Source: Clostridiales bacterium (lineage in GTDB: Bacteria > Bacillota > Clostridia > Christensenellales > Pumilibacteraceae). From it: a stretch of DNA of 52,363 bases. The first letter of the stretch is position 1. Each line of letters begins with the position of its first letter. Made by a program: the position numbers and the translations under genes. The stretch lies in contig JAIEFT010000054.1 of the NCBI GenBank assembly GCA_029066805.1, positions 1 through 52,363 of the forward strand, read 5' to 3'. Below the pieces are notes generated by a model. That model was given only the letters and a program-made list of their open reading frames with translations. It searched no databases and was not told the origin of the DNA. This document shows positions 20,095-43,007 of this stretch, one piece after another.

Positions 20095-20098
20095 TCCC

Positions 20099-20226
20099 TT
20101 TTATGGCGGATGCATCGCGCAATAGTGCGTCAGCCGCATTGCCGCCCTCGGTCATGTAGGTGGTTCTACACTCCCGTCGGTCGGCAAAACGGACTTCCTT
20201 CTCTTGCGCGCGCCTGCGCCATAAAA
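20099..20226 (+). ncRNA. Structured 3' element, copy 1 (after rpsR)
   Basis: A closing stem of TTTTATGGCG (20099-20108) with CGCCATAAAA (20217-20226), ten perfect pairs. Inside are a small hairpin (CGCGC/GTGCG) and the central helix TTGCCGCC (20139-20146) with GGTCGGCAA (20179-20187, one bulged T). The apical hairpin TGTAG-GTGGTT-CTACA lies at 20155-20170. The loop strands CTCGGTCA and CTCCCGTC are shared with the copies at 24669 and 42880. It begins four bases after the rpsR stop and is followed by a terminator, so it is probably the 3' UTR of the rpsF operon. I recognise no known RNA family. Confidence 0.75.
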
Positions 20227-20250
20227 GTCCGTTCAAACAATATAACAGTT

Positions 20251-20282
20251 AAAAAGACCTTGCAAAATAGCAAGGTCTTTTT
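20251..20282 (+). terminator. Intrinsic terminator of the rpsF-ssb-rpsR operon
   Basis: AAAAAGACCTTGC and GCAAGGTCTTTTT form a perfect 13-bp stem around AAAATA, ending in T residues. It is 24 bases beyond the structured element. Confidence 0.95.
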
Positions 20283-20405
20283 AGTGCTCTAATCCTAAAA
20301 GAAAACAGATTAAAATTTTTATGTCTGTGTCGCAGACATGCCAAGACATTTTAAATAAAATGTTGTACAATATCAGTGAGATAATATTAAATGGAGTCTA
20401 ATCTT

Positions 20406-20666
20406 ATGAAAAAATCTATTATTGATTAAATCTGCATGAACAACGTAATCTTGCGCAAGCGTGTGTTTAGCGAGGAGCATGAAAAATTTTCCGATAAAGC
20501 ATACAAATTGTATGAACAACTGATTGATATTTTAAATGACGAACAGATAAAAGTTTATAATGAATATGTTGATGCTGAGATAAAAGCAAGTTCAGAGGCT
20601 GAGACCGTGTATTTTAGGGAAGGATTAAAGACGGGACTGCTTTTGGCTATGGAGTGCTTAGCGTAA
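20406..20666 (+). pseudogene. Small gene interrupted by an in-frame stop at codon 8
   Basis: An ATG at 20406 behind TGGAG reads MKKSIID and then TAA (20427-20429). The same frame continues as ICMNNVILRKRV... to 20666. A 76-residue ORF restarts at ATG 20436, seven bases past the stop and with no ribosome site of its own. The product is helical and ends FREGLKTGLLLAMECL. This resembles small Clostridia proteins of the DUF6809 type, but the match is from memory and weak. It may be a recent nonsense mutation, a case of reinitiation, or a sequencing error. Confidence 0.55.
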
Positions 20667-20766
20667 GCGTTTATTTATACTCTTAAAAATGCAGTCAAAA
20701 CAGTGTACTTTTGTTTTTGAACATGGTATAATGAATACGTTAATAACCTAATAGGAATCAGATTTA

Positions 20767-22344
20767 ATGATTAACGTATCAAACGTAAAATTGCAATTCG
20801 GCACGCGCGTGCTGTTCGAAAACGTAAGTATAAAGTTTTCGAGCGGCAACTGCTACGGCATTATCGGCGCTAACGGTGCGGGCAAGTCCACATTTCTCAA
20901 GCTTTTGTCGGGCAAGATAGAGCCGAGCAAGGGCGAGATAACAATAGGCAAGGGCGAGCGCATGTCCGTGCTTGAACAGAACCAAAACGCTTACGACGAT
21001 TACACCGTGCGCGAAGCGGTTATCTGCGGACACAAGCAGCTGAGCGAAATACGCCGCAAGCGCGAAGTCCTGTACGCAAAAGAGGACTTTTCCGAAGAGG
21101 ACGGCAATATCGCCGCGGAGCTTGAAACCAAGTACGGCGAGCTCGGCGGGTACGAATGCGAGATCGACGCGGAAACGCTTTTAAACAGCATAGGCATTCC
21201 GCAGGACTTGTTCGATACCGATATGCGCGACATTGAGCCTAAAATCAAGGTCAAGGTGCTTATTGCGCAATGTCTTTTCGGCAAGCCGGATATATTGCTT
21301 TTGGACGAGCCTACCAACAACCTCGACATCAAAACGGTCAGGTGGTTGCAGGAATACATCAAGTCGCTCGAGCAAGCGACCGTGCTTGTAGTGTCGCACA
21401 ACCGTCACTTCCTCAATCAGGTTTGCACGCACATCTGCGACGTGGACTATTCGGCGATAAACATGTTTGTGGGCAACTACGACTTCTGGTACGAATCGTC
21501 GCAGCTCATACTTCGTCAACAAAAGGAAGCGAACAAAAAAGCCGAACAGCGCATAAAAGAATTGCGCGAATTTATTGCGCGGTTCTCGGCAAACGCGAGT
21601 AAGTCCAAACAGGCTACAAGTCGCAAGCGCGAGCTTGACAAAATCGTAGTAGAGGACATCAAGCCGTCCTCGCGTAAATATCCGTACATCGACTACAAGT
21701 TTGAGCGCGACCCAGGCAACGACATTCTGCGCGTGGAAAAGCTGACTAAAAAAGGATTTTTCGAGAACGTCACATTCTCCGTCGGGCGCGACGATAAGAT
21801 AGGATTTTTGACGGACAACAGCCGCTCGGTCGCGGAGCTGTTCGACTGCATATTCGGCGAGAGTAAGCCCGACTCGGGCAGGGTAATTTGGGGCAAAAAC
21901 ATAAAGCCCGCGTACATGCCGCAAAACTACGACAAATACTTCGAGGGTTGCGCAATGTCGCTTGTTCAGTGGATAGACCGCTGGTCGGAAAACCACGAAC
22001 AGGAATACCTGCGGTCGTGGCTGGGTAGACTGCTGTTCTCGGGCGACGAGGCGCTCAAGCCCGCCAACGTTTTGTCGGGTGGGGAAAAGGCGCGTTGCAT
22101 GCTTGCGAGAATGATGCTCTTGTCGCCCAACTTCCTTATGTTTGACGAGCCTACAAACCACCTCGACCTCGAGAGCATAACTTCGCTCAACAAGGGAATG
22201 ATCAACTTTAAAGCGCCCATTCTGTTCATCACGGCTGACGAGGAAATAATGTCGTCGGTAGCCAACCGCATTATCATCATAGAAAACGGCGTCAAGGCTT
22301 ACGACCGTCCCGTAACTTATGATGAGTATATTGCCACGTTATAG
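20767..22344 (+). CDS. ABC-F family ATPase with degenerate second nucleotide site
   Basis: A 525-residue soluble protein with two ABC ATPase domains and no membrane segments, resembling YbiT/YkpA-type ABC-F proteins that act on ribosomes. NBD1 has Walker A GANGAGKST (34-42) and LLLDEPTNNLD, with the signature replaced by DIEPKIKVKVL. The lysine/arginine-rich inter-domain linker is at about 250-310. NBD2 has LSGGEKARCML and MFDEPTNHLDLES, but its Walker A reads FLTDNSRSVAEL (about residues 347-358), without the usual G-K-S/T. The role may be translation rescue or antibiotic protection. A TATAAT lies at 20727 but its -35 box is weak. Confidence 0.85.
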   Translation: MINVSNVKLQFGTRVLFENVSIKFSSGNCYGIIGANGAGKSTFLKLLSGKIEPSKGEITIGKGERMSVLEQNQNAYDDYTVREAVICGHKQLSEIRRKREVLYAKEDFSEEDGNIAAELETKYGELGGYECEIDAETLLNSIGIPQDLFDTDMRDIEPKIKVKVLIAQCLFGKPDILLLDEPTNNLDIKTVRWLQEYIKSLEQATVLVVSHNRHFLNQVCTHICDVDYSAINMFVGNYDFWYESSQLILRQQKEANKKAEQRIKELREFIARFSANASKSKQATSRKRELDKIVVEDIKPSSRKYPYIDYKFERDPGNDILRVEKLTKKGFFENVTFSVGRDDKIGFLTDNSRSVAELFDCIFGESKPDSGRVIWGKNIKPAYMPQNYDKYFEGCAMSLVQWIDRWSENHEQEYLRSWLGRLLFSGDEALKPANVLSGGEKARCMLARMMLLSPNFLMFDEPTNHLDLESITSLNKGMINFKAPILFITADEEIMSSVANRIIIIENGVKAYDRPVTYDEYIATL

Positions 22345-22367
22345 TGCATAAACACACAGATAATTTG

Positions 22368-22396
22368 TTGACGAACTTCAAGTAAAAGAGTATAAT
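22368..22396 (+). promoter_or_regulatory. SigmaA promoter, leaderless geometry, glmU-like gene
   Basis: TTGACG (22368-22373), a 17-bp spacer and TATAAT (22391-22396), then six bases (TAGTGT) to ATG 22403. No ribosome site lies between them. Confidence 0.85.
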
Positions 22397-22402
22397 TAGT
22401 GT

Positions 22403-23665
22403 ATGGTTAATATCGGTATAAACGGAGTTATTCTCCGCGTAAAGAATAATAATCTCGGCGACGCTTGGAATCTTCCGGTGCTCGGCAGGACATTGGAGGA
22501 ATGGGTGGCGGGCACATTGAACGTGCCGTGCCAAACGATAGAAGCGTCTACGGTCATCAACATTGCCGAAAAGCTCAAGACGCTGCTTGACCGCACAAAA
22601 CCTATCACGGTCGTGCTGTACTGCGATACGCCGCTCGTTGTTGCCAAAACGATAGAAACGGCTATAAAGCACTTAACGGCGCAAAACCTCGACGCGGTCA
22701 AGCTTCCGCGCGGATGTGTGTACAAGACCGAATACCTTTACGCCGCGGATACGCTGTTTCCCCAAGAGCCGACCGGCAGCGGCGAGTTCGAAGCTGTAAC
22801 CGATTGCGAGAGCTTGTCGCGCATTACCGACACGCTCAGGCGCAGAATACTCAACTTTCACGCGGGCAACGGCGTACTTATTACCGATTATAAAAACGTT
22901 TATATCGACAGCGACGTGGTAATAGAGCGCGGTGCTGCGATCGAGCCGTACAACTTTATCAAGGGCAAAACCGTAATTAAAGCCGACGCGCACATCATGC
23001 CCAACAACTATATAGAAAACTGCATTATCGGCGGCGGCGCGCGCGTAGACAGCTCAAGGCTTTACGCGAGTATCGTAGGCGAGGGTACAAGAGTAGGCCC
23101 GTTCGCTTATATAAGACCGAACACCGTAATCGGCAAGGATTGCCGCATAGGCGACTTTGTTGAGCTCAAGAGCTGCGTAATAGGCGACGGGTGCAAGGTC
23201 AGCCACCTTACGTATATCGGCGACGCCGAGCTGGGCGCGGAATGCAACGTCGGCTGCGGCGTTGTGTTTGCCAACTACGACGGAAAGAACAAGTATAAAT
23301 CGATTGTGGGCAATCGCGTGTTTATTGGTTCTAACTCCAACATCATCGCACCGGTGCATGTAGCCGACCATGCGTTTATCGCGGCGGGTTCTACCATAAC
23401 CGACGAAGTGCCGGCAGAAGCTTTGGCGATCGCGCGTTCACGCCAGACCAATATTCCGCACTGGGCAGGCAACATGTACGCCCCGCCCGTCGGCAACGAC
23501 AATCCGTCGCCGTACAGGCTTATTCAGGACGACGAAGGCATCATAGACGGTGCGGCTAGCGAGACCGAAAACACGGGCGAGACCGAAACAAACGCCGCCA
23601 ATAACACCGACGCTGACGGCAGCGGCGACAATAACGGAGATAACAACGGCGAACAGCCGAAATAA
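22403..23665 (+). CDS. GlmU-like protein: acetyltransferase half intact, uridylyltransferase half eroded
   Basis: A 420-residue protein. From about residue 155 on it is a left-handed beta-helix close to the GlmU C-terminal domain: [22 protein letters not shown] (catalytic His), [23 protein letters not shown] and [10 protein letters not shown]. This half makes N-acetylglucosamine-1-phosphate. The N-terminal half is short and lacks the LAAGxGTRMxS..PK nucleotide-binding motif of the uridylyltransferase; [13 protein letters not shown] stands in its place. The C-terminus is a low-complexity Asn/Asp/Gly/Glu tail (about 390-420). It is followed by prs as in the classic glmU-prs operon, so it is the true locus but reduced in function. 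Confidence 0.8.
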
Positions 23666-23697
23666 AAAATATAAAGAGAAATCTTTGGAGGCAACAA

Positions 23698-24663
23698 ATG
23701 ATAGCACACGGCAATAAGGTTAAGTTGTTCTGCGGCAACGCATGTAAGGGTTTGGCAGAAGCAATCGCTCAAAACATGCGTATGAAGCTTTCGGAAGCGG
23801 AAGTGAGCAAGTTTAGCGACGGCGAGATTTCCGTATCGATAGGCGAGTCCGTTCGCGGCTGCGACGTGTTTGTAATACAATCCACGTCCATTCCCACCAA
23901 CGACAATCTTATGGAATTGCTCGTCATGATCGACGCGCTCAAGCGCGCCTCGGCGGGCAGGATCACAGCGGTCATCCCGTATTTCGGCTATGCGCGGCAG
24001 GACAGAAAAGCGCGTGCGCGCGATCCCATTACCGCTAAGCTCGTGGCCGACCTTATTACTACCGCAGGCGCGGACAGAGTGCTTACCATGGACTTGCACG
24101 CGTCGCAGATACAGGGCTTCTTCAATATCCCCGTCGATCACCTTTTGGGCGCGCCCATACTCGCCAACGCTATCGCCAACGAGGAGTTCATCAAGGAAGC
24201 GGGGGACGACCTCGTCGTCGTATCTCCCGACGTAGGCTCGGTAGGCAGAGCAAGACAAATGGCGCAAAAACTTAACAAGACGCTCGCCATTGTCGATAAG
24301 CGCAGACCTAAGGCAAACGTCATGGAAGTCATGAACATAATCGGCGACGTCAAGGGCAAGCGCTGCCTTATACTCGACGACATGATAGACACCGCAGGCA
24401 CAATCGTTCAGGGCGCAAAAGCGCTTGTGGACGTGGGCGGCGCAACCGACGTGTACGCGTGCTGCACGCATTCCGTTCTTTCCGGCCCGGCTATCGAAAG
24501 ACTTCAGAACTCGGTCATCAAAAAGCTGTTCATGCTCGACACGATAGAGCTGCCGCAAGAGAAAAAGTTAGACAAGTTCATCACCGTTTCGGTCGCACCC
24601 ATCTTTGCCGCAGCAATATCGTGCATATACGCCGACATGCCCGTGTCCAAGCTTTACGACTAA
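23698..24663 (+). CDS. prs: Ribose-phosphate pyrophosphokinase
   Basis: A 321-residue PRPP synthetase, supplying PRPP for purines, pyrimidines, His and Trp. Markers are [17 protein letters not shown]-like N-terminal blocks, [23 protein letters not shown], the [11 protein letters not shown] metal loop and the PRPP-binding motif [12 protein letters not shown]. It starts 32 bases after the glmU-like gene behind TGGAGGC. Its stop codon is followed within a few bases by copy 2 of the structured 3' element. Confidence 0.97.
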
Positions 24664-24668
24664 TGCAC

Positions 24669-24787
24669 GACGGCGCATGCATCGCGTGATGCGGGCTACG
24701 TGCGTCAAGTCGCCTTGGTCATGTAGGGGGTTCTACACTCCCGTCGGCGACTTGCCACCTGTTGCCCATCTGACGCGCGCCTTCGTC
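24669..24787 (+). ncRNA. Structured 3' element, copy 2 (after prs)
   Basis: The central helix is nine perfect pairs, CAAGTCGCC (24706-24714) with GGCGACTTG (24746-24754). The apical hairpin TGTAG-GGGGTT-CTACA is at 24722-24737, flanked by TTGGTCA and CTCCCGTC as in the other copies. A 5' hairpin GCATC-gcgt-GATGC is present. The closing stem is short in this copy: GACG/CGTC plus GCGC/GCGC with a 3-nt bulge. It shares TGTTGCCCATCTG with copy 3. It starts just after the prs stop, and a terminator lies about 45 bases beyond. Confidence 0.72.
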
Positions 24788-24832
24788 ACCGAGACTTGGT
24801 TGCATTGTTAATGCTTTACAAATAATAATTAT

Positions 24833-24873
24833 AAAAAAGTCTGTCACGTTCGAATTGTGTGACAGACTTTTTT
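24833..24873. terminator. Bidirectional terminator between prs and spoIIID
   Basis: AAAAAAGTCTGTCAC and GTGACAGACTTTTTT form a 15-bp perfect stem. The sequence is symmetric, with T runs on both strands, so it closes the glmU-prs transcript and the convergent spoIIID gene. Confidence 0.95.
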
Positions 24874-24887
24874 ATTAGGGCTGATTT

Positions 24888-25163
24888 TTACTTTGCGGTT
24901 GCCGTAGCTGCTTTATTCGCGCATTTTTGTTTGGTAGCTTCGCCGCCGCGAAGGTGGCGCACGCTTAGGTTAAAGTCCAGGATTTTGCGCACGCGCTCAT
25001 ATAGCTCTGGTTCGAGCTTGGGTAGGCGTTCGGTCACGTCCTTGTGCACCGTAGACTTTCCGATTTCAAAACGCTTTGCCGCGTCGCGCACCGTGCACTT
25101 GGTTTCGGCTATGTATTTGCCTAATTCCACGGCGCGTATGTTCTTGCTGTCACTCTTTGTCAT
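24888..25163 (-). CDS. spoIIID: Stage III sporulation transcriptional regulator SpoIIID
   Basis: A 91-residue DNA-binding protein. The helix-turn-helix region CTVRDAAKRFEIGKSTVHKDV and the following TERLPKL...VRKILDFN and SVRHLRGGEATKQK blocks match SpoIIID closely. In B. subtilis this protein acts in the mother cell, downstream of SigmaE and before SigmaK. The start ATG (25163) follows CAGGGGGA, and a SigmaE-like promoter lies upstream. Only the lysine/alanine-rich C-terminal tail is lineage specific. This is the clearest sporulation marker in the window. Confidence 0.93.
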   Translation of the reverse strand: MTKSDSKNIRAVELGKYIAETKCTVRDAAKRFEIGKSTVHKDVTERLPKLEPELYERVRKILDFNLSVRHLRGGEATKQKCANKAATATAK

Positions 25164-25191
25164 AAATCCCCCTGATTTTTGGCGGTTGTAT

Positions 25192-25221
25192 ATTGTATGA
25201 CAGCATTCGACAGAATATGAT
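25192..25221 (-). promoter_or_regulatory. SigmaE-type sporulation promoter of spoIIID
   Basis: On the minus strand, ATCATATT (25221-25214), a 14-bp spacer and CATACAAT (25199-25192). This fits the Bacillus SigmaE consensus (KMATATT, 13-15 bp, CATACAMT) closely. The start would fall near 25185, about 22 nt before the ATG. Confidence 0.8.
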
Positions 25222-25223
25222 AA

Positions 25224-25418
25224 AATTCAGAATGCAGAATGTAGAATTAAGAATGGGGGCGGCGCTACCGCTTAATGTTGAAATGCTTTGTCCGATGTTG
25301 GGCATGACAAAAGATTAGTGTGTGGTCGCGTGGTCTGCTGCCATTTTTTGTCACTCTGAACGAAGTGAAGAGTCTCATCATTTTATAATTCTGCATTCTT
25401 AATTCTTAATTCTGAATT
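25224..25418. mobile_element. MITE-like element with AATTCAGAAT termini
   Basis: About 195 bp bounded by AATTCAGAAT (25224-25233) and ATTCTGAATT (25409-25418), perfect 10-bp inverted termini. More of the flanks is complementary too: AGAATGCAGAAT and AATTAAGAAT words on the left, ATTCTGCATTCTTAATTCTT on the right. It carries no gene. Near its right side (25346-25381) is the dispersed repeat TTTGTCACTCTGAACGAAG. It lies between the spoIIID and greA promoters, three bases from the SigmaE -35 box. Confidence 0.7.
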
Positions 25419-25428
25419 GGATAAATAC

Positions 25429-25457
25429 TTGACTAATCAAAGGCGATTGGTTATAAT
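25429..25457 (+). promoter_or_regulatory. SigmaA promoter for greA
   Basis: TTGACT (25429-25434), a 17-bp spacer and TATAAT (25452-25457). A normal leader with GGCAAGGAG precedes ATG 25489. Confidence 0.8.
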
Positions 25458-25488
25458 ATATTCTGAATAAATAGGCAAGGAGTTTATT

Positions 25489-26241
25489 ATGCCCAAAGAA
25501 TATATAATGACGGCGCAAGGCATGCGCGAACTGGAAGAGCGGCTCGAGTACATTAAGCTCGTAAAAATGCCCGCTGTTGTCGAAGAGATAGCTAAAGCGC
25601 GTGCGCAGGGTGACCTTTCGGAAAACGCCGAGTACACCATCGCCCGCGAGGAGCAGGCTCAGCTCCAGAACGAAATGGACACAATTATGGAGAAGCTTGC
25701 GAATGCAAAGGTCATTGACGAGAAGTCCATTAACGACGATATTGTTTCCATCGGCTGCTCTGTGGAAGTCATAGAAGCGGACGTTGAGGAAGGGCTTGCG
25801 GCTGTAGAAAAATGCGGGCTTACGCATACCGACATAATTGCGGGATTCCTTACGCGTATGTCGGTCAACGATATGCGCGCCTCACGCTACCGCAGTGGCA
25901 TACTGGAAGAGCTTACCGCAGAGGACTTCAAGACCGCGGGCTGCGAGCTTTTAACTTCCAAACGCTATAAGCGCGAGGAGCTTTTGGACAAAGGCTTTAC
26001 CGAAGCAGAGCTTTCGGAAAAGATCAAGCCTGCCAAGGTGGACAAGTCCAAATGCAGTGGGATCAAAGCTTATACAATTGTCGGTTCTCACGAGGCAAAC
26101 GCGCTTGCGGGCAGAATTTCCAACGAGTCGCGCGTCGGTTCGGCTTTGCTCGGCAAGACCGAAAACGACGTGGTCATGGTAGGCGATTTGATTTTTAAAA
26201 TCGTCGATATTGTCGTCGATAAAAAGGCAGTCAAGAAGTAG
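25489..26241 (+). CDS. greA: GreA-family transcript cleavage factor with large insertion
   Basis: A 250-residue protein, against a usual GreA length near 157. The N-terminal coiled coil (about 1-78) keeps the tip GDLSENAEY with the acidic residues that coordinate Mg in the polymerase secondary channel. The FKBP-like C-terminal domain starts at about 85 (VSIGCSVEVIEAD) and resumes at about 192 (IKAYTIVGSHEANALAGRISNESRVGSALLGK). The stretch of about 90 residues between (103-190) is extra, mostly charged and helical, and unknown to me. It is followed by lysS, as in many Firmicutes. Confidence 0.85.
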   Translation: MPKEYIMTAQGMRELEERLEYIKLVKMPAVVEEIAKARAQGDLSENAEYTIAREEQAQLQNEMDTIMEKLANAKVIDEKSINDDIVSIGCSVEVIEADVEEGLAAVEKCGLTHTDIIAGFLTRMSVNDMRASRYRSGILEELTAEDFKTAGCELLTSKRYKREELLDKGFTEAELSEKIKPAKVDKSKCSGIKAYTIVGSHEANALAGRISNESRVGSALLGKTENDVVMVGDLIFKIVDIVVDKKAVKK

Positions 26242-26286
26242 TCGGCAGTAATTACAACGCTAACATTCTAAAAAAGGCAAAGGATT

Positions 26287-27783
26287 ATGGCAGAACAGAA
26301 TAACGTTCAAAATAACAACGTCGAAGTCGAACAGGACATAGACGCGCTCAAGGCGGTGCGGCTTGCCAAGCTCGATGCGCTTTGCGAGGCGGACGCCGAT
26401 CCGTTCAAGATTACAGAATTCACTGTAGACGCGCACGCTTATGATATTATTTCCGACCCGAAAGAAGGCGAGGTCGTGACTGTCGCAGGCAGGCTTATGA
26501 GCAAGCGCGTCATGGGCAAAGCGAGCTTTGGGCATTTGCTCGACAGATCGGGGCAGGTGCAGATTTACGTTAAGTCGGACAACCTCGGTTTGGAAGCTTA
26601 CGACGGGTTTAAAAAACAGATAGACATCGGCGATATTATAGGCGTCACGGGCGAGGTGTTTGTCACTCACCGCGGCGAAGTATCGATTGCGGTAAAGCAA
26701 CTGACATTGCTTGCCAAATCGCTAACGCCGCTGCCCGAAAAGTGGCACGGACTTAAAGATAACGACATTCGCTATCGTAAGCGCTATCTTGACCTTATTG
26801 TAAACACCGAGGTCAAGGATACGTTTATCAAGCGCAGCAAGATAATTTCGGCGATCCGCAGTTATCTTGACGCTGACGGTTTTATTGAGGTGGAAACGCC
26901 AATACTGAACACAGTCGCAGGCGGCGCGGCGGCGCGTCCGTTTATTACGCACCACAACACTCTTGACCTAGATATGTACATGCGCATTGCGCCCGAGCTG
27001 TATCTTAAACGGCTCATCGTAGGCGGTCTTGAACGCGTGTACGAGCTTGGCAGAAACTTCCGCAACGAGGGCATGGACGTCAAGCACAATCCCGAATTTA
27101 CCATGCTCGAGCTGTACCAGGCTTACGGCAACTACGAAGACATGATGACGCGCACCGAGGAAATGTATCTCGCTGCGGCGCATGCAATCGGGCTTGATAA
27201 TAAAATCACGTATCAGGGCAGAGAGATAGATATTTCCACGCCGTGGCGTCGCGTGACTATGCGCGATATCGTTAATGAAACGGTGGGAGTTGATTTTATG
27301 TCGCTCACCAAAGAGCAGGCCCAAGCCGAGCTCAAGCGTTTGGGACTCGACCCCGAGGGCGACAAGAACGCCGCGGAATGCATGTATGTTGCGTTCGACA
27401 AGCTTGTGGAAAGCACGCTCATTCAGCCGACATTTGTTACAGGCTATCCTATAGAGATTTCTCCGCTCGCCAAAAAGGACGGCAACGGACTTACGTACCG
27501 CTTCGAGTTCTTCATTAACGGCTGGGAGGGCGGCAACGCCTACTCCGAGCTTAACGATCCGATCGACCAAGCTAAGCGGTTCGAGACCCAGCGCGCAATG
27601 ATGAAAAAGGGTAGTGAGGATGCGCAAGCCGCGGACGACGACTTTGTGGAAGCGCTCGAATACGGCATGCCTCCGACCGGTGGATTGGGTATAGGCATAG
27701 ATCGCATGGTCATGCTGCTCACCGATAGCGCGTCGATTAGAGACGTTATATTGTTCCCCACAATGAAACCCAGAATTAAATAA
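26287..27783 (+). CDS. lysS: Lysyl-tRNA synthetase, class II
   Basis: A 498-residue class IIb synthetase. An N-terminal OB-fold anticodon-binding domain (VTVAGRLMSKRVMGKASFGHL) precedes motif 1 and motif 2, FRNEGMDVKHNPEFTMLELY. Motif 3, GGLGIGIDRMVMLL, is near the C-terminus. It follows greA by 45 bases behind AAAGGATT. No T-box or other leader is visible. Normal length. Confidence 0.97.
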   Translation: MAEQNNVQNNNVEVEQDIDALKAVRLAKLDALCEADADPFKITEFTVDAHAYDIISDPKEGEVVTVAGRLMSKRVMGKASFGHLLDRSGQVQIYVKSDNLGLEAYDGFKKQIDIGDIIGVTGEVFVTHRGEVSIAVKQLTLLAKSLTPLPEKWHGLKDNDIRYRKRYLDLIVNTEVKDTFIKRSKIISAIRSYLDADGFIEVETPILNTVAGGAAARPFITHHNTLDLDMYMRIAPELYLKRLIVGGLERVYELGRNFRNEGMDVKHNPEFTMLELYQAYGNYEDMMTRTEEMYLAAAHAIGLDNKITYQGREIDISTPWRRVTMRDIVNETVGVDFMSLTKEQAQAELKRLGLDPEGDKNAAECMYVAFDKLVESTLIQPTFVTGYPIEISPLAKKDGNGLTYRFEFFINGWEGGNAYSELNDPIDQAKRFETQRAMMKKGSEDAQAADDDFVEALEYGMPPTGGLGIGIDRMVMLLTDSASIRDVILFPTMKPRIK

Positions 27784-27803
27784 TCGTAATTGAGTCGAAT
27801 AAT

Positions 27804-27840
27804 TTTTTGTCATTCTGAGCGTAGCGAAGAATCTCATCCT
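27804..27840. repeat. Dispersed repeat, TCATTCTGAGC type
   Basis: TTTTTGTCATTCTGAGCGTA followed by GCGAAGAATCTCATCC. Related copies lie at 18830-18872, 25346-25381, 36368-36412 and 43921-43968. It occupies most of the short lysS-decarboxylase gap. Confidence 0.65.
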
Positions 27841-27862
27841 TATTTATTCTTCGGAGAAAATA

Positions 27863-34615: not shown

Positions 34616-34666
34616 AAAGGCAGTATTATTCGGCAAACAAAATTTACCGAACCAAAGGACGCACGT

Positions 34667-35941: not shown

Positions 35942-35945
35942 TATT

Positions 35946-36323: not shown

Positions 36324-36367
36324 CAAGCCAAAGGCTTGACGAAGCTTTTGTCTGCATGTACTCGAAC

Positions 36368-36412
36368 TTTTGTCATTCTGAACAAGCGTAGCGCAGTGAA
36401 GAATCTCATCCT
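36368..36412. repeat. Dispersed repeat, TCATTCTGAAC type
   Basis: TTTTGTCATTCTGAACAAGC, then GTAGCGCAGTGAAGAATCTC and ATCC. Same family as the repeats at 18830, 25346, 27804 and 43921. Confidence 0.65.
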
Positions 36413-36426
36413 AATTTTTAGTAATT

Positions 36427-36466
36427 CAAAAACCGACGAGCACTTTTACGTGTTCGTCGGTTTTTG
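36427..36466 (-). terminator. Terminator of the SRP RNA gene
   Basis: On the minus strand AAAAACCGACGA and TCGTCGGTTTTT form a 12-bp stem, ending in a T run. It follows the last helix of the SRP RNA directly. Confidence 0.9.
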
Positions 36467-36467
36467 A

Positions 36468-36734
36468 AACTGCGCACCGTCTTTGATAATACGCACCGAA
36501 GCGTTTTCCCGTCGGTTGACTCCGCTAAAGCTACCTTGTGGCACACGCCACATCTTGTTTAGTGCTGCTGCGGTCAAGCCCTGACACGGTTCGCAAGCAG
36601 ACGTTGCACAAGACCTTAGTATCAACATCACCTAACGGTAACAGTCCTCCCATACGTAAACCGAGGACGGCGTTCGACCCATCTATAGCGGATTGTAGGT
36701 TACAGAGTGCCGCTGCCTCTCCGTCTAGCGCAGT
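36468..36734 (-). ncRNA. ffs: Signal recognition particle RNA, large Bacillus type
   Basis: About 267 nt on the minus strand. The 5' part CTAGACGGAGAGGCAGCGG, followed by ACTCTGTAACC and AATCCGCTATAG, aligns with the Alu domain of Bacillus scRNA. The S-domain tip GTGTCAGGGCTTGACCGCAG then CAGCACTAA carries the Ffh-binding loops. The 5' ACTGCGC and 3' GCGCAGT pair to close the molecule (3' arm at 36469-36475). A promoter and a terminator bracket it exactly. It scaffolds Ffh for cotranslational membrane targeting. The exact ends are inferred from promoter spacing and the closing helix. Confidence 0.93.
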
Positions 36735-36740
36735 ACAGTT

Positions 36741-36769
36741 ATTATACGGCATTGGTTAGAAAAAAGCAA
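36741..36769 (-). promoter_or_regulatory. SigmaA promoter of the SRP RNA
   Basis: On the minus strand TTGCTT (36769-36764), a 17-bp spacer and TATAAT (36746-36741). The start would be at about 36734. Confidence 0.85.
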
Positions 36770-36880
36770 GCGATTTTAGATAATTAAGAATTAAGAATGA
36801 AGAATGCAGAATTATTGAATAAGGATATTTAATGATGAGGGCGACCTAACCTATTCACTTTTCACTTTCACGTTTTCACT
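36770..36880. other. Gap between SRP promoter and kinase terminator
   Basis: No gene. It holds a tract of AATTAAGAATTAAGAATGAA, then GAATGCAGAAT, words (near 36783-36813), the same vocabulary as the MITE-like elements at 18715, 25224 and 50491, and then short TTCACTTTTCACTTTCACG repeats. Confidence 0.5.
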
Positions 36881-36909
36881 AAAAAATCCACCGTCGGGTG
36901 GATTTTTTA
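36881..36909. terminator. Terminator of the kinase gene
   Basis: AAAAAATCCACC and GGTGGATTTTTT form a perfect 12-bp palindromic stem around CGTCG. It overlaps the kinase stop codon on the minus strand. Confidence 0.9.
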
Positions 36910-37932
36910 ACTATTCGGTTTGTCGGGCTGTTTGGTGTGCATGATCGTGTTTGGCATAAACTCGCCGTAAAACATCTGCTGGAACGCGGCGATGTTGGAA
37001 TATCTGTCCTTGGGGTAGACAGCCAATGCCTTTAGCAGCGACTTTTCGCGCACGGGCTGGATCTTGACGCCGAGCGCGGACGGCGGGACAATTTTGTCCT
37101 CGATACGCCGCTCCGTCGCTTCGGGCGGGGGATTGCCTACAAGGCATGTGTAAATCGTTGCGCCCAGCTCGTAAATATCCGTCCACGGACCTTGGCTGCC
37201 GCCTTTGGTGTACAGCTCGAGCGGGGAGTAGCCTTTTTTGAGTACGAAGAACGGTTTTTGAATATTCTGCGTGTAAATGGACGCCGCGCCAAAGTCGATA
37301 AGCTTGATTATCCGATTATCGACTATCTGGATGTTCTCGGGCGAAATATCCTTGTGGATCACGCCGTGTTGGTGCAGACGCAAAAGCGTTTCTATTACGG
37401 GTCGCATAATATTGAGCGTTTCCGACATGTGCAGCCTGCCGCCGCGCCCGTTGATAAAGCGGTGCAGACTCATGCCGTTTAGGTATTCCATTACTATGTA
37501 AGCCGTGTTGTTTGTGAGGAAAAAGTCGTAGATGCTGACTATGCCGTCAAGGTGCTTTATAGAAGTGAGGACCTTGGCTTCCTGTATGAACGCCGTCAGC
37601 CAGTAGTTGAATACTTTGGCGTTTTCCGCATTGCCGATTTCCACTACGTTGGAATGCGGTAAGCGGCTTGTGTAGCCCTTAGGGAAGAACTCTTTTATAG
37701 CAACGCCGCGCGAGGTGTACGTATCGTACGCCTTGTACGTTATGCCGAACCCACCGCGTCCGAGCGGCGCGCCAATGACGTATCTGCCCGAAAGCATAGT
37801 GCGCAGCGGCAAAGCTCCTATGGGCGACGGGTCGTCACCGCGTTTGCCGCACCGCGGGCAAACCCGCGTCCTCGGGTCGAGAGTGGCAAAGCAGTTCATA
37901 CATATGGTGCGTATATCTCTCGTGTCTTGCAT
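36907..37932 (-). CDS. Zinc-ribbon Ser/Thr protein kinase
   Basis: A 341-residue Hanks-type kinase. An N-terminal CX2C...CX2C zinc ribbon (C11, C14, C25, C28) is followed by the glycine loop GRGGFG (58-63). The ATP lysine in VAIKEF is K80, the catalytic loop is HKDISPEN (193-200) and the metal loop is DFGAAS (213-218). HKD in place of HRD and ISPEN are common in bacterial kinases of this sort. No transmembrane or PASTA segments, so it is cytoplasmic. ATG 37932 lies seven bases after its -10 box with no ribosome site. The open frame upstream to 37968 would run through the promoter. The substrate is unknown. Confidence 0.88.
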   Translation of the reverse strand: MQDTRDIRTICMNCFATLDPRTRVCPRCGKRGDDPSPIGALPLRTMLSGRYVIGAPLGRGGFGITYKAYDTYTSRGVAIKEFFPKGYTSRLPHSNVVEIGNAENAKVFNYWLTAFIQEAKVLTSIKHLDGIVSIYDFFLTNNTAYIVMEYLNGMSLHRFINGRGGRLHMSETLNIMRPVIETLLRLHQHGVIHKDISPENIQIVDNRIIKLIDFGAASIYTQNIQKPFFVLKKGYSPLELYTKGGSQGPWTDIYELGATIYTCLVGNPPPEATERRIEDKIVPPSALGVKIQPVREKSLLKALAVYPKDRYSNIAAFQQMFYGEFMPNTIMHTKQPDKPNS

Positions 37933-37939
37933 CGTTTTT

Positions 37940-37968
37940 ATTATAAACCTATGATGTAAATTTGTCAA
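37940..37968 (-). promoter_or_regulatory. SigmaA promoter, leaderless geometry, kinase gene
   Basis: On the minus strand consensus TTGACA (37968-37963), a 17-bp spacer and consensus TATAAT (37945-37940), then seven bases (AAAAACG) to ATG 37932. Confidence 0.88.
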
Positions 37969-37979
37969 TCCATTCGTTT

Positions 37980-38226
37980 AAAGTTTTCTTGCCCACTTCT
38001 TTTTTAAAGAGACAGTAAAGCAATTATTGCAATATAATTCTCGAATTAAAGTTTTCTTGCTCACTTCTTTTTTAAAGAGAACAGTAAAGCAATTATTGCA
38101 ATATAATTCTCGAATTAAAGTTTTCTTGCCCACTTCTTTTTTAAAGAGAACAGTAAAGCAATTATTGCAATATAATTCTCGAATTAAAGTTTTCTTGCTT
38201 ACTTCTTTTACAAAAGAAGTAAGGAA
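37980..38226. repeat. Tandem repeat of a 69-bp unit
   Basis: Units begin at 37980, 38048, 38117 and 38186, each with AAAGTTTTCTTGC. The first is 68 bp (one A missing), the next two are 69 bp, and the fourth is partial. Each full unit contains the palindromes GCAATTATTGC and AATTCTCGAATT, plus a TATAAT. The partial unit ends in a perfect 12-bp stem, CTTACTTCTTTT/AAAAGAAGTAAG (38198-38223). It fills the space between two divergent genes. Because 69 is a multiple of three it leaves an apparent repetitive ORF at 38027-38236, which I do not take as a gene. Confidence 0.9.
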
Positions 38227-38241
38227 AATCTCATAATTTGA

Positions 38242-38270
38242 TTGACCTATAAAAAGTCTTGTGATAAAAT
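38242..38270 (+). promoter_or_regulatory. SigmaA promoter, leaderless geometry, membrane protein gene
   Basis: TTGACC (38242-38247), a 17-bp spacer and TAAAAT (38265-38270), then six bases to ATG 38277. A TATAAT overlapping the next six bases would need a 22-bp spacer and is less likely. Confidence 0.75.
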
Positions 38271-38276
38271 ATAATC

Positions 38277-38948
38277 ATGAGCGGAGTGAAGGTAACAAAG
38301 ACGCACAGCGGCGCGTACAGACGACCTGAAAATCCGGCAAATTTCATAACCTATGCGATTGCCGCATGCGTTACGTTTGTCGGGCTCATTTTTGCGTTTA
38401 GACTTTCGATCGGATTTATGGGCATGGTTAAATTCCCGATACTTGCGGTAGCTCTGTTTGTCGCGCTTGTAGTGTTTGTCTTTGGCATCGCGGCTAACTT
38501 CGGCAGAGCGGGTGTTTCGGGAAAAGTCATGAACTGCGAAAAACCGATTTTGACTTTTGCGGCGACCATGCCGTTGCTGCTTGTCGGACTACAGGACTAC
38601 AACGCCTCAAACACCGACAGAATTTTCGGGTATGTCCTGTTTGCCGTTATCGCTTGTGCGGTTATCGCCGATATAGCGCTCAATGTATTTTGCAAGGCGG
38701 ATTTTAAGCTGTTCGAGCTCGCGCTGTACGTGGTTATCGGCTTTGCGTGCGTAATCAGATTGCACCGCATTGCCGTGCTTTGCGGCGATCTGTGTTTCTG
38801 GATGGGCATAGGTGGGTTTTCGGCATATCTTGCGGGCACGGTTATAAGTTCTATCCCCGCGATCAAATGCCGCGGACTGATAAACAGCATTGCGGTGATC
38901 ATAGGCACGGCGCTCAATTTTGTAGGAATTTTCTTTTACGTTTTGTGA
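38277..38948 (+). CDS. Polytopic membrane protein of unknown function
   Basis: A 223-residue protein with a cytoplasmic N-terminus of about 20 residues, then about seven hydrophobic segments, such as FITYAIAACVTFVGLIF and ILAVALFVALVVFVFGIA. The remainder is short loops. I recognise no family. It starts at ATG 38277 without a ribosome site, six bases after a -10 box. It lies six bases upstream of ileS and may be cotranscribed with it. Confidence 0.7.
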   Translation: MSGVKVTKTHSGAYRRPENPANFITYAIAACVTFVGLIFAFRLSIGFMGMVKFPILAVALFVALVVFVFGIAANFGRAGVSGKVMNCEKPILTFAATMPLLLVGLQDYNASNTDRIFGYVLFAVIACAVIADIALNVFCKADFKLFELALYVVIGFACVIRLHRIAVLCGDLCFWMGIGGFSAYLAGTVISSIPAIKCRGLINSIAVIIGTALNFVGIFFYVL

Positions 38949-38954
38949 GGAATT

Positions 38955-41900
38955 ATGTATAAAAAGGTAGAGGGTTACAATCCTGTCGGCATGGAAAAAC
39001 GCGTGCTCGACTTCTGGAAAGAAAACGACGTTTTTAATAAGAGTGTAGTCTTGCGCGAAGGCGGTGACGAATTCTCGTTCTACGACGGTCCGCCTACGGC
39101 AAACGGCAAGCCGCACGTGGGACATGTGCTCACGCGCACAATGAAGGATATTATCCCGCGCTTCCACACCATGAAGGGCAAGCACGTGCTTAGAAAAGCG
39201 GGCTGGGACACTCACGGTCTGCCCGTCGAGCTCGAGGTGGAAAAGTCGCTCAATATAGACGGCAAGCAGGACATAGAAAAGTACGGCGTAGAACCGTTTA
39301 TACAAAAATGCAAGCAGAGCGTTTGGAAGTATAAATCCGAATGGGAGCGCATGAGCGAGCGCGTAGGCTACTGGGCGGACATGGACAAGCCGTATGTAAC
39401 CTATGACGACAACTACATCGAGTCGGTGTGGTGGTCGCTCAAAACCATTTTCGATAAAGGTCTCATTTACAAGGGACACAAGATCGTGCCGTACTGCCCG
39501 CGCTGCGGCACGGCGCTATCGTCGCACGAGGTGGCGCAGGGCTACAAGGACGTTACCGAGCGTACAGCCGTTGTCGGGTTCAATACAGACTATGCGGGCG
39601 GGTGCAAGCTACTCGCTTGGACTACAACGCCGTGGACGCTGCCGAGCAACGTCGCACTGTGCGTAAACGCCGAGTTTGACTACGTGCTGATCGAAGCCGA
39701 CGAACAGAAATACGTGCTTGCAAAAGAGCTTGTAAGTAAACACTTTGAAAACTACACCGTAATAAACACCGTCAAGGGCAGCGAGCTTGTGGGCGTGCAC
39801 TACGAGCCGCTGTTTAAAACATACACGGGCGACAGCGACTGCTACAAGGTAGTAGCCGACGGCTACGTAATGCTCACAGAGGGCACGGGCATTGTTCACA
39901 TCTCGCCCGCATTCGGCGAGGATGACGCGCGTGTAGGCAGGGCGAACGGACTGCCGTTTGTTCAAACTATAGACGAGCGCGGACGGTTTACCGAGCCGCA
40001 GGATTTAGAGGGCAAGTTCTGCAAGGACGCCGACAAGGATATAATAACCGACCTTAAAAAACGCGGACTACTCTTGTCCGCACCGCCGGTCACGCACAGC
40101 TATCCGTTCTGTTGGCGTTGCAACACGCCGCTGCTGTACTACGCGCGCTCGTCGTGGTTTATCAAGACGACGGCGGTTAAGGACGAGCTTGTCAAGAACA
40201 ACGCGTCGGTGAACTGGTATCCTCAAAGTATCGGAACGGGACGCATGGGCAACTTCTTGGAAAACGTTATCGACTGGGGCTTGTCGCGCGACAGGTTTTG
40301 GGGCACGCCGCTGCCGATTTGGGTGTGCGATAAATGCGGCAAGACCGAAGCTATAGGAAGCAAAGCCGAGCTAAAGGAAAAGTGCGGCATAAAGGGAGAT
40401 GTAGAGCTGCATAAGCCGTACGTGGACGGCGCGACGTATAAATGCTCTTGCGGCGGCACAATGCGCCGCACGCCCGAGGTTATAGACTGCTGGTACGATT
40501 CGGGGTCTATGCCGTTCGCGCAATATCACTATCCGTTCGAGAACAAGGATATTTTTGAAAAGACTTTCCCTGCGGATTTCATTTCGGAAGCGGTCGATCA
40601 AACCCGCGGATGGTTCTACACACTTCTCGTAATTTCAACATTGTTGTTCGGCAAAGCGCCGTTCAAGAACTGCTTGGTGCTCGGTCACGTAACCGACGAA
40701 CAGGGTAGAAAGCAGTCCAAGCATTTAGGCAACGTAGTCGACCCGTGGTCGGTGCTCGACGTTACGGGTGCGGACGCCGTAAGGTGGTACTACTACACCA
40801 ATTCCGCGCCGTATCTGCCGTCGCGCTTTTACATGCGTGCGGTCACGGAATCGCAAAACAAGTTTTTGGGCACGCTGTACAACACATACGCGTTCTACGT
40901 AATGTACGCGGAGATAGATAAGTTTGACCCCACCAAAGTGGACGAGAAAAAGGTCAAATATTCATTGATGGATAGGTGGGCGCTTTCCGAGCTGAACGAG
41001 CTTGTGCAAAAGGTGGACGCGGGGCTTAACGAATATAAGCTGTACGAAACCGCGCGCGCCATTGCCGATTATACGGACAAGCTGTCAAATTGGTATGTGC
41101 GCCGCTGCCGCGAGCGGTACTGGGTGGGCGGCATGTCGGAGGACAAGACCGCGGCGTTCTACACGCTGTATACCGTGCTTAACACGCTGTGCCGCGTTGC
41201 CGCGCCGTATGTGCCGTTTATTACCGAAGAAATCTACCGCAATATCGTTTGCAGTGTGGATAGTTCCGCGCCCGCGTCAGTGCACATGGCGGACTTCCCC
41301 AAAGTCAACAAAAAGTTTGTTGACGCCAAGCTTTCCGTCGATATGGATAAGGTAATCAAGGCGGCGGAGCTGGGTAGGGCGGCGCGCAACAAGAGCGGGA
41401 TCAAAAACCGTCAAACGCTGTCACGCGTGATCGTAGCGGGCGATTTTCCGTTTGAATACGCGGATATCCTCGCCGACGAGCTCAACGTGAAAGACGTAGT
41501 GGCAGGCGGCGCTAGCGACCTCACCGGCTACGACGTAAAACCGCAGCTCAAGACCGTAGGACCTAAGTACGGCAAGCTAGTCGGAGCGATACGCACGCAC
41601 TTAGCCGAAAACGGCGATACTGCCGCAAAGACCGCGCTTGCAGGCAATACTTATGCATTCGAGATCGGCGGCAACAAGGTTGAACTGACCAAGGACGATA
41701 TGCTGATCGCCACACGCGGCGCGGAGGGCTATTCGGTGGAGAGCGACCTTGATATGACTGTCGCGCTTGACGTAACGCTCACCGACGAGCTCTTAAAGGA
41801 AGGTGCTGCGCGCGAGATAATTTCCAAAATCCAGACCATGCGGAAAAACAACGGCTACGACGTCACCGACAGAATAAAGCTGTACTATGCAGGCGATAAA

Positions 41901-42041
41901 TTTATCGAGGAAGTATTTGCGGCGCACGGCGAGCGCATTGCCAAGGTCACGCTTGCGACAGAGGTCAATAAGCTGACCGCCGATGGCGAAAAGTCGGATA
42001 TCAACGGTCACGACGCGAGAGTGCGGATAGAAAAATGTTAG
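38955..42041 (+). CDS. ileS: Isoleucyl-tRNA synthetase, eukaryote-like type 2
   Basis: A 1028-residue class I synthetase. PPTANGKPHVGH holds the HIGH motif (as HVGH). The KMSKS motif is KQSKH, within GRKQSKHLGN. The CP1 editing domain lies between, with zinc-type cysteine pairs (CPRCG, CWRCN, CDKCG, CSCGG). The block TRGWFYTLLVIST and the long C-terminal part fit the type 2 (IleS2) enzymes, many of which resist mupirocin. It starts at ATG 38955 behind TGAGGA. No T-box leader. The next gene overlaps its end by seven bases. Confidence 0.95.
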   Translation: MYKKVEGYNPVGMEKRVLDFWKENDVFNKSVVLREGGDEFSFYDGPPTANGKPHVGHVLTRTMKDIIPRFHTMKGKHVLRKAGWDTHGLPVELEVEKSLNIDGKQDIEKYGVEPFIQKCKQSVWKYKSEWERMSERVGYWADMDKPYVTYDDNYIESVWWSLKTIFDKGLIYKGHKIVPYCPRCGTALSSHEVAQGYKDVTERTAVVGFNTDYAGGCKLLAWTTTPWTLPSNVALCVNAEFDYVLIEADEQKYVLAKELVSKHFENYTVINTVKGSELVGVHYEPLFKTYTGDSDCYKVVADGYVMLTEGTGIVHISPAFGEDDARVGRANGLPFVQTIDERGRFTEPQDLEGKFCKDADKDIITDLKKRGLLLSAPPVTHSYPFCWRCNTPLLYYARSSWFIKTTAVKDELVKNNASVNWYPQSIGTGRMGNFLENVIDWGLSRDRFWGTPLPIWVCDKCGKTEAIGSKAELKEKCGIKGDVELHKPYVDGATYKCSCGGTMRRTPEVIDCWYDSGSMPFAQYHYPFENKDIFEKTFPADFISEAVDQTRGWFYTLLVISTLLFGKAPFKNCLVLGHVTDEQGRKQSKHLGNVVDPWSVLDVTGADAVRWYYYTNSAPYLPSRFYMRAVTESQNKFLGTLYNTYAFYVMYAEIDKFDPTKVDEKKVKYSLMDRWALSELNELVQKVDAGLNEYKLYETARAIADYTDKLSNWYVRRCRERYWVGGMSEDKTAAFYTLYTVLNTLCRVAAPYVPFITEEIYRNIVCSVDSSAPASVHMADFPKVNKKFVDAKLSVDMDKVIKAAELGRAARNKSGIKNRQTLSRVIVAGDFPFEYADILADELNVKDVVAGGASDLTGYDVKPQLKTVGPKYGKLVGAIRTHLAENGDTAAKTALAGNTYAFEIGGNKVELTKDDMLIATRGAEGYSVESDLDMTVALDVTLTDELLKEGAAREIISKIQTMRKNNGYDVTDRIKLYYAGDKFIEEVFAAHGERIAKVTLATEVNKLTADGEKSDINGHDARVRIEKC

Positions 42042-42940
42042 CGCCCGATTGGAAAGACTATAAAATCCTCGGTACGGGCGACGGGCTCAAGCTCGAACTT
42101 TGGAAGGACATAATGCTGCTTCGCCCCGATCCGCAGGCAATATGGCGCGCAACCGTGGATTACAAAAAGTTCGACACGCACGCAAGGTACGAGCGCGATC
42201 GCGCCGGCGGCGGCAGGTGGATAGTCAATAAACCAATGCCCGACGAGTGGCAAATCTCCTGGCGCGACTGCAAGTTTTACATCAAGCCGACCGGATTCAA
42301 GCATACCGGACTTTTTCCAGAACAAGCAGTAAACTGGGCTAGGCTTTCCGGCATTGTGGACGAATATGCCGCGCGAGGCAAGCAGATAAGAATACTCAAT
42401 CTGTTTGCGTACACGGGCGCGTCTACAGCGGTTCTCGCCAAGCACGGCGCGCACGTCACGCACGTGGACGCGGCAAAGGGCATGGTGGAACGCGCCATAC
42501 TCAACTGCAAGCTCAACGGCGTGCCGCAGGATAATACCCGCTTTATTATAGACGACTGCAAAAAGTTCGTTGCGCGCGAGATCAAGCGCGGCAAGAGCTA
42601 CGACGCGGTCATCATGGATCCGCCCAGCTACGGCAGGGGCGCGGGCGGCGAGGTGTGGCGTATGGAGGACGACGTCTTCGACCTTGTAAGGCTCACCGTA
42701 GGCGTGCTCAACAATCCTCCCGCATTCTTTTTGATAAACAGCTACACAACAGGACTGCAACCGCAAACAATATCCAACATACTTTCGCTCAATTTGAGCG
42801 GCGGCAATGTTTCGGCATACGAGGTGTGTCTGCCGACGGAAAAACCGAGTATAAACCTACCTTGCGGCTGTAGCGGACTCTTCTTGGCGGATTCATCGCC
42901 GGATACGGGCTACGTTCGTCGTGGCGGCTTGGTTACGTAG
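42035..42940 (+). CDS. Class I SAM-dependent methyltransferase (RlmI-like), C-terminus altered by repeat
   Basis: A 301-residue methyltransferase. The SAM-binding motif is ILNLFAYTGASTAVLAKHGA and motif IV is VIMDPPSYGRG, as in RlmI/RlmL-type rRNA cytosine or guanine methyltransferases, but without an N-terminal PUA domain. It overlaps ileS by seven bases. The family normally ends soon after a LPCG block; here LPCGCSG is followed by about 20 residues encoded by the structured element at 42880-43007. The stop codon lies in that element's apical stem. The function is therefore likely intact but the tail is foreign. Confidence 0.8.
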   Translation: MLAPDWKDYKILGTGDGLKLELWKDIMLLRPDPQAIWRATVDYKKFDTHARYERDRAGGGRWIVNKPMPDEWQISWRDCKFYIKPTGFKHTGLFPEQAVNWARLSGIVDEYAARGKQIRILNLFAYTGASTAVLAKHGAHVTHVDAAKGMVERAILNCKLNGVPQDNTRFIIDDCKKFVAREIKRGKSYDAVIMDPPSYGRGAGGEVWRMEDDVFDLVRLTVGVLNNPPAFFLINSYTTGLQPQTISNILSLNLSGGNVSAYEVCLPTEKPSINLPCGCSGLFLADSSPDTGYVRRGGLVT

Positions 42941-43007
42941 GTGGGTCTACGCGCCCGTCGCCGCCCCACCGACTGTTGCCCGTCTGCGGCGCGACTGCGC
43001 CAAGAAG
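42880..43007 (+). ncRNA. Structured 3' element, copy 3 (overlaps methyltransferase 3' end)
   Basis: The closing stem is CTTCTTGGCG (42880-42889) with CGCCAAGAAG (42998-43007), ten perfect pairs. Compared with copy 1, three of the ten pairs are changed on both sides. The central helix is GGCGGC (42923-42928) with GCCGCC (42960-42965). The apical hairpin CGTAG-GTGGGT-CTACG at 42936-42951 replaces T-A by C-G at its base. The loop strands TTGGTTA and CGCCCGTC are conserved. Unlike copies 1 and 2 it begins inside a coding region and has no clear terminator behind it. Confidence 0.75.

Follow-up and report, generated by a model that had tools for sequence, protein, structure and literature searches.

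A large dispersed family of imperfect palindromes at gene 3′ ends in Pumilibacteraceae, with a fold that favours the antisense strand

The attC site of an integron lies at the 3′ end of its cassette gene. Such sites are imperfect palindromes of 57–141 bp and are recognised as the folded bottom strand, according to the accessible part of PMC3053210. Other dispersed palindromes, also taken here from excerpts of the cited reports, include the enterobacterial repetitive intergenic consensus (ERIC) sequences, 127-bp repeats with long stem loops that are co-transcribed with their neighbours, whose orientation affects the outcome for the mRNA and which are tabulated with 7-bp terminal inverted repeats and target-site duplications (PMC2229807). 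Repetitive extragenic palindromes (REP and REPIN) mostly occupy the space behind a gene whose next neighbour is on the same strand or convergent (PMC3733652), and the Rickettsia palindromic elements (RPE) are palindromes of ~150 bp that enter coding frames (PMC10969869). In this study, we analysed a stretch of 52,363 nucleotides (hereafter the window), contig JAIEFT010000054.1 of a Clostridiales bacterium from the family Pumilibacteraceae (assembly GCA_029066805.1), which holds three elements at the ends of genes. These are members of a large dispersed and so far unnamed family of imperfect palindromes of ~130 nt, found in a little-known group of gut bacteria.

The element is ERIC-like in being a long hairpin repeat of ~130 nt, as far as the excerpt of PMC2229807 describes ERIC. 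In contrast to the 7-bp terminal inverted repeats of ERIC, its ends vary between copies; it is also tied to stop codons, folds better in the antisense direction and belongs to another phylum, with no sequence relation shown. Conserved terminal inverted repeats, a trait of classical miniature inverted-repeat transposable elements (MITEs; ERIC, RUP, NEMIS), were not seen, as the end sequences vary. The position 3′ of genes is shared with the REP/RAYT palindromes (excerpt of PMC3733652), but a REP measures 20–40 bp and carries an unpaired GTAG/CGTC tag, whereas GTAG lies inside the apical stem of the ~130-nt element, and no Y1 transposase (PF01797) matched in this genome. The better fold of the bottom strand recalls attC (accessible part of PMC3053210), but the attC boxes RYYYAAC and GTTRRRY occurred together in 0 of 103 copies (left only in 4, right only in 3), no integrase scored above cut-off in 74 genomes, and the neighbours of the element include core operons. 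As excerpts of PMC10969869 report for RPE, copy 3 of the window and several others provide codons or a stop codon to their genes; here, however, gene 3′ ends are hit, and again no sequence relation was shown. The element resembles ERIC, REP and RPE in abundance, place and gene-end effects and lacks a tested feature of each of the MITE, REP and attC kinds. The combination of an antisense-strand fold and gene-end placement is unexplained by any catalogued element that we checked. No equivalent is described in the literature covered (mostly outside subscription journals) on ERIC, Rickettsia palindromic elements, Pumilibacteraceae, Anaerocaecibacter or clostridial dispersed palindromes.

The size of the family is evident from several searches. 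A BLAST search with copy 1 gave 26 matches in its own genome, and a 23-nt core pattern with at most 2 mismatches gave 27 matches in the whole genome versus 0 for the reversed control, two of the 27 (L032 and L034) being judged chance hits in coding DNA. A covariance model built from 59 class A copies scored 42 candidates in the same genome, with at least 32 matches, and also matched in 49 of the 74 family genomes, 14 of the 18 family genera and 50 of 297 order-sampled genomes, 17 of the latter 50 belonging to the element's own family. With at most 42 candidates scored per genome for the family and at most 10 for the order, all copy counts are lower bounds. The strongest matches outside the family came from G139, G157 and G189 (f19) and G285 (f20); eight outside matches were inspected, with the window of L298 misplaced and L303 no clear member. 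When the genome_contigs collection, described as covering 84,980 species, was scanned for the exact pattern, it returned 60 stretches labelled Clostridia, Clostridiales, Christensenella sp., Roseburia sp. or Anaerocaecibacter muris, and Anaerocaecibacter is assigned to Pumilibacteraceae by NCBI taxonomy. No element match was found in viral contigs (exact pattern) or in plasmids and phages (blastn with copy 3). The first-pass annotation had recognised no Rfam family, and this holds: Rfam 15 placed a signal recognition particle (SRP) RNA elsewhere in the window and nothing at the three elements, matched no family at 16 loci, most of them with further element copies, and for copy 3 at E up to 10 gave four microRNA matches, all far below gathering scores. 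The same annotation had proposed a covariance-model search of the genome and its relatives. The family is not a fixed RNA gene but a dispersed repeat that is gained and lost and that, in some genomes, numbers dozens of copies.

Two main classes have the tip and the outer stem in common and differ in the middle helix, ATACGGGC/GCCCGT in class A and GCAATAG/CTCTTGC in class B. Chimeras join a left B to a right A arm (L041, L077) or a left A to a right B arm (L081), and L012, behind a tRNA-Leu gene, is reduced to the tip. Several variants were also noted. An extra module of ~85 nt (GCAGCCACAGGCTGAC...CAACATTTGGTTGC or similar) is nested inside the hairpin, left of the tip in L010, L015, L016, L028 and L096 and right of it in L011; in L057 (positions 1500 and 1634) and L227 a further copy, whole or just begun, stands in tandem beside the first. 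L301 (family f15) represents a distant class that has the tip in common but another middle helix, CGCAATACTTTGTTGC; it lies behind an rplF-like and before an rplR-like gene in a ribosomal protein operon. The L302/L304 site was dropped as a case of deep orthology, and it is uninformative on the element because the whole 3.1 kb is 87% identical.

All three elements in the window were located where the first-pass annotation had put them (20099–20226, 24669–24787 and 42880–43007). Copy 1 (class B, 20098–20227) lies directly 3′ of rpsR (ribosomal protein S18, 19819–20094, plus strand), and copy 2 (class A, 24667–24790) lies directly 3′ of prs (ribose-phosphate pyrophosphokinase, 23698–24663, plus strand), with spoIIID (24888–25163, minus strand) as its convergent neighbour. 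Copy 3 (class A, 42878–43009) lies within the 3′ end of an S-adenosylmethionine-dependent methyltransferase gene (42035–42940, plus strand; RlmI-like in the first-pass annotation), upstream of an RNA pseudouridylate synthase gene (43067–43906, plus strand), for which an earlier identification as a sigma factor was wrong. We assign all three to the minus strand, the better-folding one in the family. Each folds into a long hairpin (z of −4.49, −2.24 and −4.74 versus dinucleotide shuffles), and a 30-nt signature of the apical hairpin and internal loop matched three times in the window (20150–20179, 24717–24746 and 42931–42960, all minus strand) and in none of 100 shuffles. The elements had been described as lying on the coding strand at the 3′ ends of genes. 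They are so placed and the family is indeed found at 3′ ends, but the fold of the opposite strand is stabler and on balance better conserved, and copy 3 is not simply behind its gene: it has replaced the last methyltransferase codons, so that the reading frame now stops inside the apical hairpin at 42940. Neither does the central helix differ in all three copies, as had been claimed, since copies 2 and 3 share the class A helix; that of copy 1 is class B, CGCGCAATAG/CTCTTGCGCG.

Single copies come and go between close relatives. Copy 2 is present at prs in this genome, and in the 17 other genomes of the genus that have a prs match none was seen within ~260 nt of the stop codon. Copy 3 is absent from the methyltransferase–pseudouridine synthase junction in the 18 other genus genomes read, with a short element-like stretch, TCGGCGGTGCATACATCGCG, in G016; the methyltransferase ends in CSGLYTN plus three residues in G004, G005, G010, G012, G015 and G019 and in CSGLFLADSSPDTGYVRRGGLVT where copy 3 is present. 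Between rplJ and rplL, G000, G005, G010 and G015 have a full copy directly after the stop codon, G004, G008, G019 and G002 a shortened or decayed one, and G003, G006 and G009 possible remnants, with no element in G011, G013, G014, G016, G017 and G018 (G007 had no match, and the survey covers the genus except G001 and G012). At the queA stop codon, 6 of the 29 family genomes read carry a whole or partial element (G000, G016 and G017, and G036, G064 and G084 from two other genera), G028 has one further downstream, and the remaining genomes show none within ~190 nt, G009 not being judgeable. Three more queA loci of the genus are L046 (G018), L151 and, with the left part only, L226 (G002).

The position of the copies relative to genes was read from 102 copies whose flanks were long enough (99 of the genus plus L059, L124 and L141 from outside it), with gene calls made by a codon-scored caller trained on 15 open reading frames (ORFs) of the window. 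These copies are not all independent because some are orthologous pairs and three come from outside the genus. The upstream gene is on the same strand in 97 of the 102 and the downstream gene in 92 of 101, giving neighbour orientations of 89 ++, 7 +−, 3 −+, 2 −− and 1 +?. A cruder longest-ORF caller gave 58 ++, 20 +−, 15 −+, 8 −− and 1 +?, with the upstream gene on the same strand in 79 of 102. In the other genera and families, 24 of 30 copies have same-strand genes on both sides, 3 more lack an upstream call, 2 are opposite to both neighbours and 1 is divergent. With the nominal left edge of the element set 58 nt before the tip, the upstream stop codon is no more than 10 nt away from it in 63 of the 97 copies that follow a same-strand gene; it is part of the outer stem in some copies and is provided by the element in others. 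Core operons are among the neighbours, including rplJ-rplL, secY-adk-like and ffh-rpsP-like ones. In four copies (L011, L098, L223, L232) the better-folding strand is sense to both neighbours, and these would be possible source loci if the element is an RNA. Separately, an end subfamily TTTGAAAGC/GCTTTCAAA has a similar tail, TTTTNTGACAAGGAGGTCAT, with a sequence resembling a ribosome-binding site just before the next start codon; this tail occurs in the right flanks of L069, L079, L111, L205, L212 and L215, other genera included.

The fold is retained while the sequence changes. Pair counts refer to class A, with class B (11 copies) and any chimeric or unclassified copies kept apart; 62 class A copies minus the odd L008 and L056 and the near-duplicate of L105, L108, left 59 in alignments A2 and A3, including L059, which comes from a different genus (G028). 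Pairing on the gene strand extends to 91.8% of cells, and 35 of the 48 pairs show two-sided changes. The covariation score of 0.371 compares with 0.134 for shuffled data and was reached in 0 of 500 shuffles, which leave relatedness in place, and sliding the partners, which retains relatedness, gave at most 0.097. The opposite strand on its own consensus reached 93.8% of cells, two-sided changes in 36 of 48 pairs and 0.421 versus 0.161 (0 of 500 shuffles). The gene strand also covaries; the opposite strand does so somewhat more and folds better, but each strand pairs best on its own consensus. The covarying stems and conserved internal loops of the first-pass annotation are borne out, further copies do covary, and the internal loops are largely kept across genera. 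The argument drawn there for RNA over DNA is not proven by covariation, because ssDNA (single-stranded DNA) hairpins recognised by their structure exist, as in integron attC, and template switching can also make and repair stems. The reported GKGGKT hexaloop is present in 87 of 106 copies (GTGGGT in 62), nearly all from this genus, where the apical stem is GTAG/CTAC; outside the genus, however, GTAC/GTAC, GTAT/ATAC or TTAT/ATAA often forms the stem and carries another loop, and the loop is not conserved in the other genera. The end stems pair though their sequence varies between copies (A2 columns 4–10).

Were the gene strand the one that folds, G.U would be the expected intermediate when G-C and A-U pairs exchange. 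In the pairs of the top-strand consensus they pass through A.C in 93 cells versus G.U in 42, a count that excludes the two near-constant G.U columns 39/101 and 67/72, and an A.C on the gene strand is a G.U on the opposite one. At two columns canonical pairing is confined to the bottom strand (GU49/GC8/AU2 and GU53/CG3/AU1 of 59), and on the bottom-strand consensus canonical cells number 2653 for the bottom and 2500 for the top strand, of 2827. The gene strand has a mean fold energy of −61.5 kcal/mol, and the antisense strand is the more stable in 69 of the 73 copies of classes A and B, by 9.2 kcal/mol on average where shuffled sequences lean 2.1 kcal/mol to the other side, and in 29 of the 31 usable copies from other genera and families (32 were folded and L299 was dropped for a misplaced window; L228 is L059 and L297 is L141). 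These data favour, short of proof, the bottom (antisense) strand as the carrier of the kept fold, since the fold energies are clearer than the raw counts of canonical cells and the G-U exchanges point the same way.

Several mismatches recur at fixed places, U.C or U.U on the gene strand, which is G.A or A.A on the bottom strand. Among the 59 copies, columns 16/122 are T.C in 51 and C.T in 5, T.C occupies columns 28/111 in 58 and 40/100 in 57, and a tandem mismatch sits beside the tip (59/80 in all 59; 60/79 C.T in 46 and T.G in 13). In the right arm the three G.A mismatches are spaced 11 and 11 nt apart in 59 of 59 copies, and in the left arm, with one bulged base, 12 nt (58 of 59) and then 11 nt (57 of 59). 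The ladder in copy 3, on the minus strand, has its rungs at 42892 with partner 42995 (T.C on the plus strand; A2 columns 16/122), 42904 with 42984 (columns 28/111) and 42915 with 42973 (columns 40/100). The steps amount to one helical turn each, and we infer from this a ladder that a protein could read.

The arms can also follow the host gene. In the fuller queA copies the right arm is complementary to the coding end of the same species, CTGTTTCTT pairing with AAGAAACAG in this genome and CTGTGCG with CGCACAG in G017, and in the truncated G036 copy GCCTGTT pairs with AACAGGC; the chimeric G016 copy is without such pairing. Paired by hand, the T of the queA stop codon remains opposite a C. Arms that follow host genes fit template switching, although template switching alone is insufficient because it would erase the mismatches that are kept.

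How should this family be understood? Judged from the sequences, we put at about even the chance that it is a mobile, non-autonomous palindrome of the ERIC/REP kind, recognised as ssDNA or RNA of the antisense strand; the grounds are the many copies, their presence and absence between close species, the one orientation and a structure that outlasts sequence. The fold would then be needed for the spread of the element, during which a putative protein may recognise the antisense strand, preferably as an ssDNA hairpin or else as an antisense RNA. The recognised shape could be a rigid rod with the conserved tandem G.A below the tip and three G.A one helical turn apart, and the outer arms may be rewritten to the host coding end by selection, by template switching or by both. 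Transcription of the hairpin as part of the operon mRNA would be a by-product and may affect processing or stability of that mRNA, as proposed for ERIC. More tentatively, and with clearly lower probability, the family could be a class of its own, mobile or regulatory and recognised by structure: a template-strand rod at gene ends with G.A mismatches one helical turn apart, read by a putative protein that would insert or act at stop codons, while the outer arms are continually rewritten to pair with the coding end of the host gene.

Some observations weigh against a mobile palindrome read on the antisense strand. On the top-strand consensus canonical cells are more numerous for the top strand (2595 versus 2538 of 2826), a lead due to the near-constant G.U columns 39/101 and 67/72 (54 of 59 each); the gene strand folds better in 4 of 73 copies and in 2 of 31 from other genera; and the excess of A.C over G.U could in part be mutation bias. 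The 11-nt spacing fits A-form RNA as well as, or better than, DNA. A few copies (the four named above) have the opposite orientation, chimeric (L041, L077, L081) and shortened (rplJ in G004, G008, G019) copies survive, from which single copies look dispensable, and no target-site duplication was visible at two clean empty sites, where the flanks are too diverged to call one. Searches for Y1 transposase, reverse transcriptase and integron integrase found no mobilising enzyme. Of 20 genus genomes 16, among them this one, lack a PF01797 match; 31 of the 74 family genomes do match, with no relation to element count (Spearman −0.11, p 0.36). Reverse transcriptase (PF00078) was not found in 17 of the 20, again including this one, and among 12 genomes with at least 20 element matches a Y1 match occurred in 5 and a reverse transcriptase match in 4. 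The integron integrase model TIGR02249 was above cut-off in 0 of 74 genomes, with weaker matches in 68 and in 14 of 14 controls. Absence from one genome is weak evidence because the assemblies are mostly drafts, and the pattern over many genomes is stronger. Mobilisation by the REP/RAYT, integron or reverse-transcriptase routes is thus unsupported by the PF01797, TIGR02249, attC-box and PF00078 results.

Three other explanations bear on the same evidence. A cis-acting mRNA element, in which every copy is kept because its gene-strand hairpin, transcribed with the operon, shields the mRNA upstream or serves as a processing site, would account for copies that follow a same-strand gene and mostly sit between two of them, for a gene strand that folds strongly, covaries and leads on its own consensus, and for the end subfamily with a ribosome-binding sequence beside the downstream start codon. 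We regard it as rather unlikely, as most exchanges appear as G-U on the opposite strand, which is the better-folding one in 69 of 73 copies, the relatives read lack copies 2 and 3, and shortened copies survive. Somewhat less probable still is a functional RNA of the antisense strand, a trans-acting or retroposed non-coding RNA from source loci that was inserted antisense at gene ends. Its G-U exchanges and purine-rich G.A loops on the bottom strand are typical of folded RNA, the 11-nt ladder suits an A-form helix, and at four loci the bottom strand is sense to both neighbours; against this, reverse transcriptase is lacking here, in most of the genus and in 8 of the 12 element-rich genomes, and its count does not track that of the element across the 74 family genomes (Spearman 0.03). 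Covariation could also be largely mutational, if template switching keeps copying the left, coding arm into the right one; selection on structure would then not be needed. Template switching at replication is reported to create and repair stems (in the accessible part of PMC8794818), and right arms track the queA coding end in more than one genus. This we consider the least probable of the three, since mismatches should vanish under such a process and yet T.C is kept at columns 28/111 and 40/100 in nearly all copies, one kept mismatch falls on the queA stop codon (paired by hand), and the conserved tip and the spread of the family are left unexplained.

The family is a natural data set for telling apart selection on RNA, recognition of ssDNA and template switching, which are readily mistaken for one another if covariation is taken as proof of RNA. 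Sequence is the usual basis for defining such repeats; here it is structure, which outlasts sequence across genera and partly across the order, and the substitutions indicate which strand carries it. The family also illustrates that repeats can supply stop codons and protein ends to ordinary genes.

Other features of the window were noted. The SRP RNA is the bacterial large type (RF01854, 154.7 bits) at 36470–36733 on the minus strand, and an A+T-rich repeat of 69 nt stands in three to four tandem copies at 37978–38218. A second dispersed repeat consists of TTAAGAATTCAGAATGCAGAAT-like units at 18705–18748, 25211–25254, 36776–36819 and 50518–50561, beside which lies a repeat ending in GNAGTGAAGAATCTCATCC or similar, at 18835, 25344, 27803 and 36375. 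Text resembling the TTAAGAATTCAGAATGCAGAAT and GNAGTGAAGAATCTCATCC repeats also occurs near elements of relatives (L070, L183).

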